NCBI GenBank assembly: GCA_004295015.1
Contig: SHNE01000044.1
Coordinates: 129,998 to 193,997 of the forward strand
Direction: 5' to 3'
DNA length: 64,000 nt
From: Bacteroidota bacterium
GTDB lineage: Bacteria; Bacteroidota; Bacteroidia; AKYH767-A; 2013-40CM-41-45
The translations under genes and the position numbers were made by a program. Positions within the stretch are counted from its first letter, which is position 1. The number at the start of each line of letters is the position of its first letter. The notes under the pieces were generated by a model, which saw only the letters and a list, made by a program, of their open reading frames with translations, had not been told where the DNA came from and ran no database searches. Below are positions 13,106 through 18,903 of the stretch, piece after piece.

Positions 13106-15151
13106 TTACCGGATAGTTCCGCCGTTTTCTATGCTTTTTGTCGGAGCCACAAAGGCCAGTTCACCTTTTGCATTTTCCGCCATCAGAATCATTCCCTGTG
13201 ATTCGATTCCTTTGATTTTCCTTGGTTCGAGATTGATAAGGATGCTCACCTGTTGCCCGATGATATTTTCCGGTTTATAGTCAGCAGCTATTCCTGACAC
13301 GACGGTTCTTTTATCAAGACCGGTATCGATGACCAGCTTTAAAAGTTTATCTGTTTTAGGGACCCGCTCAGCCGTAATAATAGTGCCTACCCGGATATCC
13401 ATTTTTTGAAAATCATCAAAGCTTGTGCTGTCTTTAGCCGGTGCCGGACCATTATTCCTTGCCTCATTTTCGGCTTTGCTGACAGCGAGTTTGTCGATCT
13501 GCTTTTGAATTTCTGCATCTTCAATTTTTTCAAAAAGCAAACTAGCCTCTGCCAGTTGATGACCTTTTGTCAATAATGGTTTATCAATTAATTCTTTCCA
13601 GGATTTAGAAGAAATGTTTAGCATTTTCAACAGCTTCTTCGCCGTAAAGGGAAGGAAAGGTTCCATCAGGTAGGCGAGGGCTGCTGTTATCTCCAATGAA
13701 ACAGATAAAATCGTAGCTACGCGTTCAGGATTTGTTGCATGTATCTTCCAGGGTTCCTGATCTGCCAAGTATTTATTTCCTGCACGGGCAAGATTCATCA
13801 ATTCAAAAAGGGCATCCCGAAATCGAAATTTTAATATATTTTCTTCAATGCGTTTAGGGCTTTCTTTGATCAATTCAAGGCAAGCCTGATCCTCATTAGT
13901 TAGAGAAGATGCAGATGGCACTTTCCCTTCGAAATATTTTTGAGTGAGGACAAGCGTTCGGTTTACAAAATTACCGAGCACAGCAACGAGTTCATTATTA
14001 TTTCTTGCCTGAAAATCTTTCCATGTAAAATCATTGTCTTTGTTTTCAGGCGCTGTTGCGCAAAGAGTATAGCGCAACACATCCTGCTTGCCCGGGAATT
14101 CTTCCAGGTATTCATTCAGCCAAACTGCCCAGTTGCGTGAAGTGGATATTTTTTCTCCTTCAAGATTTAAAAACTCATTGGCAGGAATATTTTCAGGAAG
14201 AATAAATTCTCCATGCGCCTTTAGCATTGCCGGGAAAATGATGCAATGGAAAACGATATTATCTTTTCCTATAAAATGAAGAAGCCGGGTGTCTTTGTCT
14301 TTCCAATATGGCTCCCAGCCCTCAGGGTTAGAAGTATTTTCGAAAAGAGCTTTTGTTGCCGAGATGTATCCGATAGGTGCATCAAACCAAACGTAAAGCA
14401 CTTTGCCTTCAGCTTCCTTGAGCGGTACCGGAACTCCCCAGTCAAGGTCGCGTGTTACTGCCCTTGGCTGTAATCCCTGATCAAGCCAGGATTTGCACTG
14501 TCCGTATGCATTATTTTTCCAGTCTTTTTCATGACTCTTAATCCACTCTTCCAGCCATTCTTTTTGAAAACGATCTAAGGGTAAATACCAATGTTTGGTT
14601 TGGCGAAGAATAGGTTTCTTACCGCTCAATTGTGAGTGAGGATTAATTAATTCCGAAGGAGATAAGCTCTTCCCGCACTTTTCACATTGGTCGCCATAGG
14701 CGTTTGGATTGCTGCAATTAGGACAAGTTCCGGTTATATAACGATCAGCTAAAAAAGTTTTTGCCTCCTCGTCATAATATTGTTCCGTGGTTTCTTCAGT
14801 GAATATTTTTTTATCGTAAAGAGTGCTAAAAAAAACAGACGCCGTTTGATGATGTACAGGCGATGAAGTGCGGTGGTAAATATCAAAACTGATCCCAAAA
14901 TCTTCAAAACTCTTTTTGATGATTCCATGATACTTGTCTACGACTTGTTGTGGTGTGATACCTTCTTTGCGAGCTCTCAAAGTGATCGGAACTCCATGTT
15001 CGTCGGAACCACAGATGAATTTTACATCGGATTCAATGGCCCGCATAAAGCGTACATAAATATCAGAGGGTAAATAGGCTCCTGCAAGATGACCAATATG
15101 TACAGGTCCGTTTGCATAAGGTAATGCAGCTGTTACGAGGGTACGTTTCAT
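13106..15151 (-). CDS. metG: methionine--tRNA ligase
   Basis: 681 residues from the ATG at 15151, preferred over an in-frame TTG two codons earlier because [15 protein letters not shown] is the classic N-terminus. It charges tRNA-Met with methionine using ATP. The HIGH signature is HIGH itself (18-21), the knuckle zinc site is CPNC...CEKC (about 144-160), and the KMSKS loop is KISTS (about 334). The anticodon-binding helical domain follows, then an acidic/Lys-rich linker and a C-terminal EMAP-type tRNA-binding domain ([14 protein letters not shown]). The gene is divergent from the LD-carboxypeptidase gene with 113 bases between and ends in its own terminator. Confidence 0.98.
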
Positions 15152-15251
15152 AATCAATTTTATATTCCGTGAGAATCAGCTTATAATAAGGTTAATGATC
15201 TATCATCACTCATTGAGCTTTCAGCCACGACAAAATTCAATAACTTCGCGG

Positions 15252-15259
15252 CAAAGATA
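15252..15259 (-). promoter_or_regulatory. candidate -7 box for metG
   Basis: TATCTTTG on the minus strand is an exact TAnnTTTG match and would give a leader of about 95 bases. I see no TTG at the -33 position. The box lies just before the ATG (15265) of the divergent LD-carboxypeptidase gene, for which TAACTTCG (15241-15248, plus) is a weaker -7 candidate. Confidence 0.42.
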
Positions 15260-15264
15260 AGAAT

Positions 15265-16176
15265 ATGATTCGACCGCCCTATTTGAAAGCAGGTGATTCT
15301 GTAACGATTGTATCAACCGCCAGAAAAGTTTCTAAAGCAGAATTAAAGATGGCTGCAGATACACTTCAGTCCTGGGGTCTGGATGTGAAATACGGAAAAA
15401 ACTTATTCAAAGCAGACAGGCAGTTTGCCGGAACGGATGAAGAGCGAAGAGCTGATTTTCAGTCGGCTTTGAACAGTAAGTCAGCTGCCATATTATTTGC
15501 CCGCGGAGGTTATGGCACAGTGCGTATCATTGACCGGATTGATTGGAAAAGATTTCAGAAGAATCCTAAATGGCTGATTGGGTTTAGCGATATCACAGCC
15601 ATTCATTCTCATTCGAATAAAATTGTAGAAGTGGAAACCCTGCACGCACCGATGGGACTTACACTGTCTAAAGTGAATACAAACTGCCTGAGTGTAATTA
15701 AAGATGCTCTTTTCGGTCAGCGTCTACGTTATACTGTTTCAAAGCAAGCAGCTGCGATGGAAAAACTCAACAGGGCAGGTTCGGCAAGAGGGCAGCTCGT
15801 AGGCGGGAATCTATCGATGCTTCATACCTTGAGTGGAACCCCTTCTGATATTGATTGTAGCGGGAAGATTCTTTTTTTGGAAGACCTGGATGAATACCTA
15901 TATCATATCGACAGAATGATGATGCAATTAAAGCGCAGTGGTAAACTGGCTTCATTGGCAGGCCTTGTGATTGGTGGAATGACAGATATGAAAGACAATG
16001 ATATTCCATTTGGAAAAACTGCTGAGGAAATCATTGCGGAGGCGGTAGCTGAATATAATTATCCGGTCTTTTTTGGATTTCCTGCAGGTCATATTCCGAA
16101 CAACTACCCATTAATTTTTGGCAGAGATGTAACACTTAAAGTTTCGGATAAAATGTCCCTTACTTTTCATTCCTGA
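15265..16176 (+). CDS. LD-carboxypeptidase (peptidase family S66)
   Basis: 303 residues, the family length. S66 enzymes such as LdcA remove the terminal D-Ala from tetrapeptide stems during cytoplasmic murein recycling. I see the N-terminal Rossmann-like start (KAGDSVTIVSTA), the FARGGYG motif (79-84), the nucleophile in GFSDITAIH (Ser108), the conserved glutamate in LFLEDLDE (about 203-206) and the catalytic His in PAGHIPNNYPL (about 276). All catalytic elements are therefore present. There is no signal peptide, so the protein is cytoplasmic. Its TGA overlaps the ATG of yraN (TGATG), which implies translational coupling. Confidence 0.93.
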   Translation: MIRPPYLKAGDSVTIVSTARKVSKAELKMAADTLQSWGLDVKYGKNLFKADRQFAGTDEERRADFQSALNSKSAAILFARGGYGTVRIIDRIDWKRFQKNPKWLIGFSDITAIHSHSNKIVEVETLHAPMGLTLSKVNTNCLSVIKDALFGQRLRYTVSKQAAAMEKLNRAGSARGQLVGGNLSMLHTLSGTPSDIDCSGKILFLEDLDEYLYHIDRMMMQLKRSGKLASLAGLVIGGMTDMKDNDIPFGKTAEEIIAEAVAEYNYPVFFGFPAGHIPNNYPLIFGRDVTLKVSDKMSLTFHS

Positions 16177-16535
16177 TGACTTCCAAGGAGCTCGGTCGAA
16201 TCGGTGAGGCAATGGCGGCAAAGCATTTGCTGGAAATGGCATACACGATTCATTCAAAAAATTATATTTACGATCGGGCCGAAGTTGACATAATTGCCGA
16301 GCATAAAGGGATGCTTGTTTTTGTAGAAGTGAAAACCAGAATGTCGGCCTACCTCAGTGATCCTTCGTTATTAATTTCCAGAAAAAAGCAAAATCAGATC
16401 ATCAAAGCAGCTGATAATTACGCACGGGAGTTTCATCCGGAAAAGGAATCCCGTTTCGATATTATTGTGATAATAACGAATGATAAGTATACATCATTAG
16501 AGCACATCGTTGATGCCTTCTATCCTATGATATAA
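16176..16535 (+). CDS. yraN: UPF0102 family protein YraN (endonuclease-like)
   Basis: 119 residues. YraN/UPF0102 proteins have a PD-(D/E)XK nuclease fold; their role is not established. The family features are GRIGEAMAAKHLLE near the N-terminus, the RAEVDII strand (Glu36, Asp38) and the FVEVKTR strand (Glu51, Lys53), which together form the putative metal site. The start codon shares one base with the stop of the LD-carboxypeptidase gene. The GxxExxY cassette begins only 8 bases after the stop, so that cassette has inserted or persists right behind this gene. Confidence 0.93.
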   Translation: MTSKELGRIGEAMAAKHLLEMAYTIHSKNYIYDRAEVDIIAEHKGMLVFVEVKTRMSAYLSDPSLLISRKKQNQIIKAADNYAREFHPEKESRFDIIVIITNDKYTSLEHIVDAFYPMI

Positions 16536-16542
16536 ATGTGAT

Positions 16543-16568
16543 GGAATAGAAATTTATGGAACGCAGAT
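16543..16568 (+). repeat. left inverted repeat of GxxExxY cassette
   Basis: GGAATAGAA, 8 bases, AACGCAGAT. The same outer and inner 9-mers recur inverted at 17164-17188. Confidence 0.6.
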
Positions 16569-16698
16569 TGGTCCGAATGTTGAATGCAATAAGACAGGCG
16601 GGAGACGCAGATCTTTAACGATAATTTAAGATTTATAGGGTATTTCTATTGGTTTTTAAGAAAATATTGATCCTTAACGATTAAAATTTTAAAGATTG

Positions 16699-17088
16699 AT
16701 GAAATCTTTTACTAATTACAAGCACACAGAAATAACAAACAAAATGCTTCAGGCATTTTACAAGGTTTATAATACACTCGGTTATGGTTTTTTGGAAAAA
16801 GTGTATGAAAATGCTTTGTTTTTTGAACTATGTTCTTTAGGATTTCACGTGGAAAGACAAAAAGAGATTGATGTTTACTATGAGAAGAAACTGGTTGGTA
16901 AGTATTTTGCTGACTTGGTTATCGATCACTGCGTGATAGTTGAACTTAAAGCATCGGACAAATTACGTGAGGAAAACGAATACCAACTTGTAAATTATCT
17001 CAAAGCGACGAGTTTTGAGGTCGGTTTACTCTTGAATTTTGGCAAGAAACCTCAAGTCAAACGAAAGGTCTTTTCAAACCATAAATGA
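16699..17088 (+). CDS. GxxExxY family protein (PD-(D/E)XK nuclease-like)
   Basis: 129 residues from the ATG at 16699 (a TTG lies one codon earlier). The motif that names the family is GFLEKVY (Gly30, Glu33, Tyr36). Downstream, ADLVID (Asp72) and VIVELKA (Glu82, Lys84) form the D...ExK arrangement of the PD-(D/E)XK nuclease superfamily. GxxExxY proteins are known as a family occurring in many copies in environmental genomes; their function is not known to me. The gene is an orphan between yraN and the pseudouridine synthase, and it is enclosed by the inverted repeats described separately. Nuclease activity and mobility are inference. Confidence 0.88.
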   Translation: MKSFTNYKHTEITNKMLQAFYKVYNTLGYGFLEKVYENALFFELCSLGFHVERQKEIDVYYEKKLVGKYFADLVIDHCVIVELKASDKLREENEYQLVNYLKATSFEVGLLLNFGKKPQVKRKVFSNHK

Positions 17089-17163
17089 TTCGAATTTATT
17101 GTTTGTAATTGGTATGATAGATTCTATGCAATCAAAATTATTCTTTCTGTGCCAATCATAAAA

Positions 17164-17188
17164 ATCTGCGTTATCTGTGTTCTATTCC
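17164..17188 (-). repeat. right inverted repeat of GxxExxY cassette
   Basis: Reverse complement reads GGAATAGAA, 7 bases, AACGCAGAT, mirroring 16543-16568. Confidence 0.6.
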
Positions 17189-17352
17189 TTCGTCAGCTAT
17201 ATGGGCAATTCTAATAAACAGTTTAAATTTTCTGCGATAGTCATAAAGGTCTACTTCATTCGCCTGTCTCATTGAATTCGAAATTCGGACACATCGGTGT
17301 TCCATCAGTCAAAGCTTCAAAAATAAACCACGCAAATCCCCTATAAATTCCT

Positions 17353-17360
17353 TATTTTTG
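17353..17360 (+). promoter_or_regulatory. candidate -7 box of pseudouridine synthase gene
   Basis: TATTTTTG matches TAnnTTTG exactly and is 19 bases before the ATG at 17380, implying a very short leader. No clear TTG at -33. Confidence 0.4.
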
Positions 17361-17379
17361 CCACTTACAACAAATATTC

Positions 17380-18903
17380 ATGGGAAAGTTTAGGAAAGCA
17401 GCTCCTGGAGGCCGAAAAGGCGGTACGGGTAAGAAATCGGTGGGAGCTAAATCAGGCACACGTAAGCCAAGCAAAGGAACAGGGCGTGGGAAAGGACAGT
17501 CAAAATCCTATATTCCTGAAAAGACCAATCCTGTAATCGGAAGAGGTACAAAGCGCAAAAAAACTGCAGGGAAGCCGGATAGTAGAGAGAGAGAAGAAAG
17601 AACCTTTTCACCAAGAAGAGAAGGTGCAGATAGAGGCAGTGAAAGAAAGTCAGGAGGCGGATTATATCAACGCAGAGAAGCCGGTGGACGTCCGGATAGT
17701 CGCCCTTTTGATGATAAATCACGTGGTCGAGATTTAGAAAGACCGGATAAAGCAAGAGGAACAGGGAAGCCTTTTCCAAGACGGGATGATTCGGATAAGC
17801 CTGTCAGAAAAAGTTATTCAAAGGAATCGGGTAGTTCCCGAGGGGAAGAGCGCCGTCCTTTTTCAGGAAGGAATTCAGAGCGTAGTGCACGACCTTACGA
17901 CAAAAAAGAAAGTTCAGATCGACCAAGAAAAGGTCGTAGCGAAGGTAAATTTTTCAGGCCGGGTGAAGACGATACAACAGAAAAGCGAAAGCGCATAGGA
18001 CAGGACGATAACTATAAACGCTCAGAGCCCGGTAAGTACGACAAAGCACCTCGTGAAGAAGGAGAGAAGAAATGGAATCGTAAAGAGTCTCACGAATTAT
18101 ACGGCGACCGTAAAAAAGGCATAGCTCCATTTCCGAAGAAGGAGAAAGTGAAGTATGATCCTGCAGAGGCGGAGGAAGGCACGCGACTGAATAAATTTAT
18201 TGCTAACGCAGGAATTTGTTCACGGAGAGAAGCAGATGAGATGATCAAGGCAGGCGTGATTTCTGTGAATGGAGAAGTCATCACTGAAATGGGTCATAAG
18301 GTTCAGCAAGGCGATGTCGTTAAATACAATAATGAAACCTTGCGAGGCGAACGACTTGTCTACATCCTTCTTAATAAACCCAAAGATTTTATCACTACAA
18401 CTGATGATCCGGAGGAGCGCAAAACCGTGATGAATCTTATCGTGAAAGCCTGCAAGGAACGAGTCTATCCTGTAGGTCGTCTCGACAGAAATACCACCGG
18501 TGTATTATTATTTACGAACGACGGAGATATAGCCCGTAAATTAACTCATCCGAGTTTTGAAGTTCATAAAATATATCAGGTAGAATTAGACAAGGCATTA
18601 AAAAAAGAGGATATGGAAGCGATCACCAAAGGAATTACTTTGGAAGATGGCCCTATAAAAGTTGATGAAATTGCATACGCTACTGAGTCAAGAGATGTTG
18701 TTGGTGTGGAAATACACAGTGGACGCAACAGGATCGTGCGACGAATTTTTGAACATCTTGAATACAAGGTAAAGAAACTCGACCGTGTCGTATTCGCCGG
18801 ATTAACGAAGAAAGATTTGCCTCGTGGACGTTGGAGATTTCTGACAGAGATGGAAGTGGCGAATTTGAAAATGATAACCGGGAAGAAGAAGAAAGCTTTT
18901 TAA
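17380..18903 (+). CDS. rRNA pseudouridine synthase (RsuA/RluB family) with long basic N-terminal extension
   Basis: 507 residues, roughly twice the catalytic core. Residues 1-265 are a Lys/Arg/Gly/Ser/Glu-rich low-complexity tail (repeated RP, SGG and KRKR patches), presumably disordered and RNA-binding. The S4 domain follows (TRLNKFIANAGICSRREADE, about 267-320). Next is the RsuA-type synthase, with the catalytic Asp369 in GRLDRNTTG, the VHKIYQVEL strand and GRNRIVRRIFE. The family isomerises specific uridines in 16S or 23S rRNA; which one here cannot be read from sequence. Transcribed alone on the plus strand. Confidence 0.93.
   Translation: MGKFRKAAPGGRKGGTGKKSVGAKSGTRKPSKGTGRGKGQSKSYIPEKTNPVIGRGTKRKKTAGKPDSREREERTFSPRREGADRGSERKSGGGLYQRREAGGRPDSRPFDDKSRGRDLERPDKARGTGKPFPRRDDSDKPVRKSYSKESGSSRGEERRPFSGRNSERSARPYDKKESSDRPRKGRSEGKFFRPGEDDTTEKRKRIGQDDNYKRSEPGKYDKAPREEGEKKWNRKESHELYGDRKKGIAPFPKKEKVKYDPAEAEEGTRLNKFIANAGICSRREADEMIKAGVISVNGEVITEMGHKVQQGDVVKYNNETLRGERLVYILLNKPKDFITTTDDPEERKTVMNLIVKACKERVYPVGRLDRNTTGVLLFTNDGDIARKLTHPSFEVHKIYQVELDKALKKEDMEAITKGITLEDGPIKVDEIAYATESRDVVGVEIHSGRNRIVRRIFEHLEYKVKKLDRVVFAGLTKKDLPRGRWRFLTEMEVANLKMITGKKKKAF

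Follow-up and report, generated by a model that had tools for sequence, protein, structure and literature searches.

A GxxExxY gene in the window (the whole stretch of 64,000 nucleotides analysed here) lies between two pairs of inverted repeat arrays, and the unit is probably a partly degraded, gene-bearing copy of a family of small mobile elements whose own PD-(D/E)XK nuclease would recognise the arrays. The evidence that the unit is mobile and bears conserved arrays at its ends is good. What was observed directly is this end structure, its correspondence with the protein clade, gene-less derivatives, empty sites, near-identical copies and the sense orientation of the gene; that GxxExxY recognises the arrays, cuts the DNA and drives movement is our best inference from these observations. 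The element would consist of two inverted heptamer-array ends (pitch about 9 nt) around one gene, GxxExxY, the product of which would bind the repeated heptamers with one protomer per repeat. By nicking or cutting the DNA at the element ends the protein may mobilise its own element and, in trans, gene-less palindromes.

Layout of the unit and structure of its ends

The inverted-repeat score across the GxxExxY gene (129 aa, 16699..17088, plus strand) was 54; the 302 other window positions scored 20 on average and 31 at most, and 1000 shuffles did not go beyond 33. The remaining 70 ORFs of the window never scored above 27, leaving GxxExxY as the only one of 71 with strong flanking repeats. The first-pass annotation had described GGAATAGAA (16543..16551, plus strand, the left copy of the terminal motif with a AATAGAAC-type end) and AACGCAGAT (16560-16568) in the left flank, and their inverted copies ATCTGCGTT (17163-17171) and TTCTATTCC (17180-17188) in the right flank. 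These repeats are present at those positions, as is an extra ACGCAGAT inside the unit (16605-16612), and the unit start at 16543 is indeed 8 bases behind the end of yraN (16176..16535, plus strand), which forms the left flank. Across the whole genome of origin there are exactly two occurrences of the composite GGAATAGAA-N(0,30)-AACGCAGAT, namely the two arms of the window unit. The octamer ACGCAGAT was found 4 times in the window where 1.3 are expected, and 5 of 100 shuffles reached 4; by itself the bare octamer is weak evidence.

The ends had initially been placed at 16543 and 17188. Repeats do occur there, but the strongest repeat pair, which had been overlooked, is 16556-16617 with 17244-17305 (62 nt, 77%), and because of this outer pair the insertion extends to about 17306. 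With a profile built on arms from other species three arms were detected in the window (16555-16579, plus strand; 17147-17186 and 17280-17306, both minus strand). The left arm (16555..16617, plus strand; 13.9 bits with the arm HMM) has a ATGGAACGCAGAT-type end followed by an array and is the partner of 17244-17305; an inner left array remnant, ACGCAGATC-TTTAACGAT-AATTTAAGAT (16604..16630, plus strand), pairs partly with 17159-17171. The best-preserved array is the right arm, AATAGAACACAGATAACGCAGATTTTTATGATTGGCACAG in minus-strand reading (17147..17188; 23.5 bits), and the outer right arm ATGGAACACCGATGTGTCCGAAT... (17244..17306, minus strand; 10.4 bits) is the partner of 16556-16617. In the simplest reading, the gene-bearing element is apparently nested in, or overlaps with, a second palindrome. 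The right flank is formed by a gene (17380..18903, plus strand) which we take to encode an RluB-like pseudouridine synthase; in relatives it directly follows yraN.

The flanks of the nearest homologues (78 loci, 54-70% protein identity) were analysed in Bacteroidota, Ignavibacteria, Cloacimonadota, Chloroflexi, Acidobacteria, Nitrospinota, proteobacteria, Methanoperedenaceae and Methanosarcinales. The median inverted-repeat score was 39 at these loci and 21 in shifted-position controls; 78% of the loci were above the 95th percentile of the controls and 74% above the 99th. For yraN, used as a gene-family control, the median was 20.5 and the maximum 26. From the outside towards the gene the arm consensus reads AATRGAACRCDGAT-GACRCDGAT-TNAACDGAT-TTNCRCDGAT, in which a heptamer recurs every 9 nt or so (best period 9 in 43 of 66 blocks and 10 in 14 of 66). 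Inverted heptamer arrays are an end structure that is conserved across phyla, archaea included. A lack of repeats around other GxxExxY genes had been set beforehand as a refuting test, and inverted arrays were found at most of these genes. The fixed 9-mer that had been proposed as the repeat did not hold; the arrays at the ends are degenerate, their repeats follow one another about every 9 nt, and the heptamer itself varies by protein clade. Among the ends of the GAT class the third base varies (ATGG or ATAG), and in 50 gene-less copies of this class G/A-mixed ends came in the order G.A in 16 and A.G in 7.

Among the window's relatives the other words are CRCAGAG, CGCAAAG, CACATAG, CATTAAG, CGCAGCG and ACAGGAT, and a further class has TGTCTGAA ends followed by TGGGAT or CTGATT-type words. 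The heptamer class follows the GxxExxY protein tree: on a tree of 53 rows the array class requires 11 changes, as opposed to 24.2 with shuffled labels (0 of 200 shuffles as low), and the GAT class of the window requires 2 as opposed to 18. The GAG, AAG and TAG words are mixed within a large sister clade, which counts against recognition of the arrays by the element's own protein. Within an element the two arms agreed at the variable positions of the units at 0.74, as compared to 0.47 after permutation (about 6 sd); for the spacers the values were 0.48 and 0.375 (about 3 sd), so that the spacers also co-vary somewhat. Mismatches between GxxExxY arms, read on the sense strand, showed no preference for G.U (79 G.U versus 87 A.C). 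The higher agreement in the units than in the spacers, together with the lack of a G.U excess, suggests that the repeated word is recognised, and not that an RNA stem is conserved.

The GxxExxY protein

The window protein is a clear member of TIGR04256 and PF13366 (PDDEXK_3), with 128 bits (cut-off 35) and 133 bits (cut-off 22), respectively. Residues D72, E82 and K84 are intact, as are E33, Q96 and Y100. In 44 diverse homologues D72 and K84 were invariant and E82 nearly so (at least 90%); E33, Y36 and Y100 were likewise invariant and Q96 nearly so. Judged from this alignment, the conserved residues are a PD-(D/E)XK core with a QxxxY motif, and the latter presumably likens GxxExxY to the RecB/Cas4/lambda-exonuclease group. 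The predicted structure is confident (pLDDT 91.6), and its top structural match was the Cas4-type SSO0001 (Z 9.4), followed by lambda-exonuclease-type nucleases; Z-scores in this middling range indicate the fold and not the function. The PD-(D/E)XK-like fold that had been suggested for the family is borne out by the confident model and the conserved catalytic residues, and it is from these intact residues that the unit may be called nuclease-guided, as was also proposed. A sequence search yielded no solved structure of a GxxExxY protein, and no assigned role was found for the family, which one paper mentions in passing.

The only Pfam match of the unit's only gene is PDDEXK_3, and a Y1 HUH transposase is therefore not encoded. 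A DDE transposase is also absent from the unit, its sole ORF being PD-(D/E)XK, which agrees with the first-pass annotation of a unit without transposase.

Empty sites, gene-less copies and orientation

The gene order ldc-yraN-rluB is kept in relatives, and no GxxExxY gene was found at the locus of any of these. A second gap, between radA and the gene of an FAD protein, came from a search across the class and is empty in G073 (35 bp), G113 (92 bp) and G405 (26 bp), all empty sites being resolved at the level of genes (for the radA-FAD gene gap, in these three Bacteroidia genomes). The same radA gap is filled by a CRCAGAG unit in Bacteroides finegoldii and by a GAT-type unit with a damaged gene in G177. 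The GxxExxY proteins of these two units are 52% identical despite radA neighbours that are about 81% identical, and two independent insertions are thus likely. The G177 gene appears to be frameshifted, that is, to have decayed after insertion. Alleles without the unit, which had been called for as a check, thus exist at yraN-rluB as well as at the radA-FAD gene gap, and together with the arrays around other GxxExxY genes they support the earlier suggestion of a mobile unit. As regards a conserved target of the homing type, the units sit in many unrelated gene pairs, and the radA gap holds two different ones. In two Flavobacterium species (L051 and L102) a unit lies between the same two genes, which suggests long vertical retention after insertion.

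A search in the genus of G042, for which a second species was obtained, gave no clean base-exact empty site, G048 is the sole member of its genus, and no empty site was found in plasmid relatives of L269 and L273. Among the empty sites found there was no unambiguous base-exact junction, which counts against the mobile, self-recognising element. Target duplications of 4-11 bp were not in excess at 52 solo palindromes, and for 3 bp the excess is unclear (3 seen, 1.4 expected). The target duplication that had been looked for is thus not present at a length above 2 bp, which likewise counts against this reading; a 2-bp AT duplication would look like the end itself.

In the genome of origin, copies that are 98-99% identical in the gene occur at loci whose flanks differ in part or altogether. 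This genome and most of those of the relatives are drafts or MAGs. In the former, the assembly is broken at near-identical GxxExxY copies whose arrays read TGTCTGAAC-TGGGAT (contigs C6, C17, C50 and C3), and several of these copies are truncated at contig ends.

A strict end pattern gave matches in 10 of 61 relatives and a reversed control pattern gave none. Many of the matches are palindromes of about 80-200 bp in which both ends are present and the gene is absent, and in one genome palindromes of its own element were matched at at least 40 places. All 10 genomes with a strict array hold GxxExxY, which is present in 39 of the 61 overall (chance about 0.007, calculated by hand); for mobilisation in trans, it is this co-occurrence that was seen. 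The elements were almost absent from phage and viral contig collections and few in plasmids. G042 has many near-identical copies of a composite palindrome that carries a CAGGAT array inside and ATACTACTAGACAAAATTGTC-like ends outside, and a pattern for the emptied form found no copy lacking the inner part.

Gene-bearing units between co-directional genes are strongly biased for the sense orientation (sense:antisense 56:3 and 11:1, 67:4 together), and they often begin inside the upstream stop codon or directly after it. Gene-less palindromes (n = 16) lay between co-directional genes in 6 cases, convergent genes in 6 and divergent genes in 4, with no comparable bias. Because the bias is confined to copies with a gene, its best explanation is that expression from the operon of the host is selected for, and a need for host transcription would most likely account for the orientation. 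A SAM riboswitch at one locus (L182, 90-232) is unrelated to the unit.

Related elements and alternative readings

GxxExxY elements share individual properties with known systems. Like the MITEs of DDE transposons, the family includes short copies without an ORF that share their ends with the gene-bearing element; it differs from these in having no DDE transposase, no target duplication above 2 bp (the duplication of a DDE insertion sequence was not seen at the 52 solo palindromes) and ends that are repeat arrays. REP/RAYT and IS200/IS605 systems combine dispersed palindromes with a small encoded protein, often without target duplication, but their protein is a Y1 HUH transposase and that of the GxxExxY unit a PD-(D/E)XK nuclease. 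Foldback transposons, which are eukaryotic and carry no PD-(D/E)XK gene, would resemble GxxExxY elements in their long inverted repeats made of short tandem repeats. The suggestion that the unit is intron-like found no support: the unit is intergenic, no catalytic RNA of a group I or II intron is present, its arms bear no sign of retention as an RNA stem, and Rfam returned no family, no intron match at 15000-18500 and no rRNA match (sub-threshold matches to a microRNA and DUF3800-VI were taken as chance).

The closest parallel is found in genes for S23, a four-helix-bundle protein (TIGR02436). In relatives, S23 genes outside rRNA (L207-L236) also lie between inverted arrays, the pitch of which is strictly 7 (autocorrelation excess of 0.39, 0.41 and 0.36 at lags 7, 14 and 21). 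The median inverted-repeat score at these loci was 39, as compared to 20, with a sense:antisense ratio of 20:3. No S23 arms were found in the genome of origin with the nuclease-type arm HMM, probably owing to the different pitch and word of S23 arrays. The 23S rRNA intervening sequences, which are regarded as selfish, resemble the GxxExxY unit in having one small ORF, inverted terminal repeats with short tandem repeats and no transposase. They differ in that they lie in 23S rRNA helices and have an S23 protein and heptameric repeats with a pitch of 7; the GxxExxY unit lies between mRNA genes and has a PD-(D/E)XK nuclease and a pitch of 9. Accordingly, the window unit has the terminal repeats with tandem repeats, but neither the location in 23S rRNA nor the S23 protein. 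The intervening sequence with an S23 ORF in the 23S rRNA of Coxiella burnetii is bounded by inverted repeats and carries tandem heptamers in 2-3 copies, depending on the strain (PMC4990558).

That the pitch goes with the encoded protein family (9 for GxxExxY, 7 for S23) favours binding of the protein to the array. As a tentative though serious possibility, GxxExxY and S23 elements may be two branches of an unrecognised class of inverted-array mobile elements, in which the protein sets the pitch and reads a clade-specific word with one protomer per repeat; the intervening sequences of rRNA would be members that landed in rRNA. S23 elements have this architecture as well although S23 is not a known nuclease, and the mobilising enzyme may thus be something other than the product of the element's gene.

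Among the alternatives, a selfish element that acts at the RNA level, much like an intervening sequence, is unlikely but survives best. The arms would fold in the operon transcript and be cut by RNase III, so that the insertion is tolerated, and the protein would be secondary. The sense orientation of gene-bearing copies in operons, the S23 elements of the same architecture with pitch 7 and the cleavage by RNase III of the terminal inverted repeats in the Coxiella intervening sequence with its S23 ORF and tandem heptamers (PMC4990558) are in line with this, but G.U mismatches are not in excess in either family (11 G.U versus 21 A.C in S23 arms), the spacers are less conserved between arms than the units, gene-less copies are convergent or divergent (10 of 16) more often than co-directional, and none of 20 scanned S23 loci was within rRNA. 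It is more doubtful still that a host enzyme or that of another transposon moves such ends, with GxxExxY or S23 as a passenger or array-binding regulator. GxxExxY and S23 elements encode no common enzyme and some genomes have more copies without the gene than with it, as a foreign mobiliser would allow; the heptamer and pitch that follow the encoded protein and the conserved nuclease residues argue against it. A defence or toxin-antitoxin islet, its nuclease directed against foreign DNA and its arrays serving as marks of self, would suit the Cas4/lambda-exonuclease-like PD-(D/E)XK fold and the patchy distribution, but is very improbable given that no fixed partner gene was present at the loci read and that gene-less palindromes are dispersed in the genome. 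An ordinary, vertically inherited intergenic gene with chance or terminator-like repeats, for which speak the commonness of the octamer alone and the few units at orthologous sites (as in Flavobacterium), is hardly credible in view of the controls and the empty sites, and is refuted by the conservation of the same ends across phyla at 54-70% protein identity.

No earlier description of array-ended GxxExxY elements was found by sequence search, in Rfam or in the open-access literature, and no paper was found that contains the array sequences; the family to which the window gene belongs is known, but the literature searched had nothing on its array-ended context. GxxExxY occurs in many copies in many genomes, and the palindromes around it are usually ignored; a mobile element with its own array-recognising nuclease, if true, would provide one explanation for both and would add a mobile element that encodes a nuclease and does without a transposase. 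One could then test how the intervening sequences of rRNA arose, and the family would offer a natural series of matched pairs of nuclease and DNA word.
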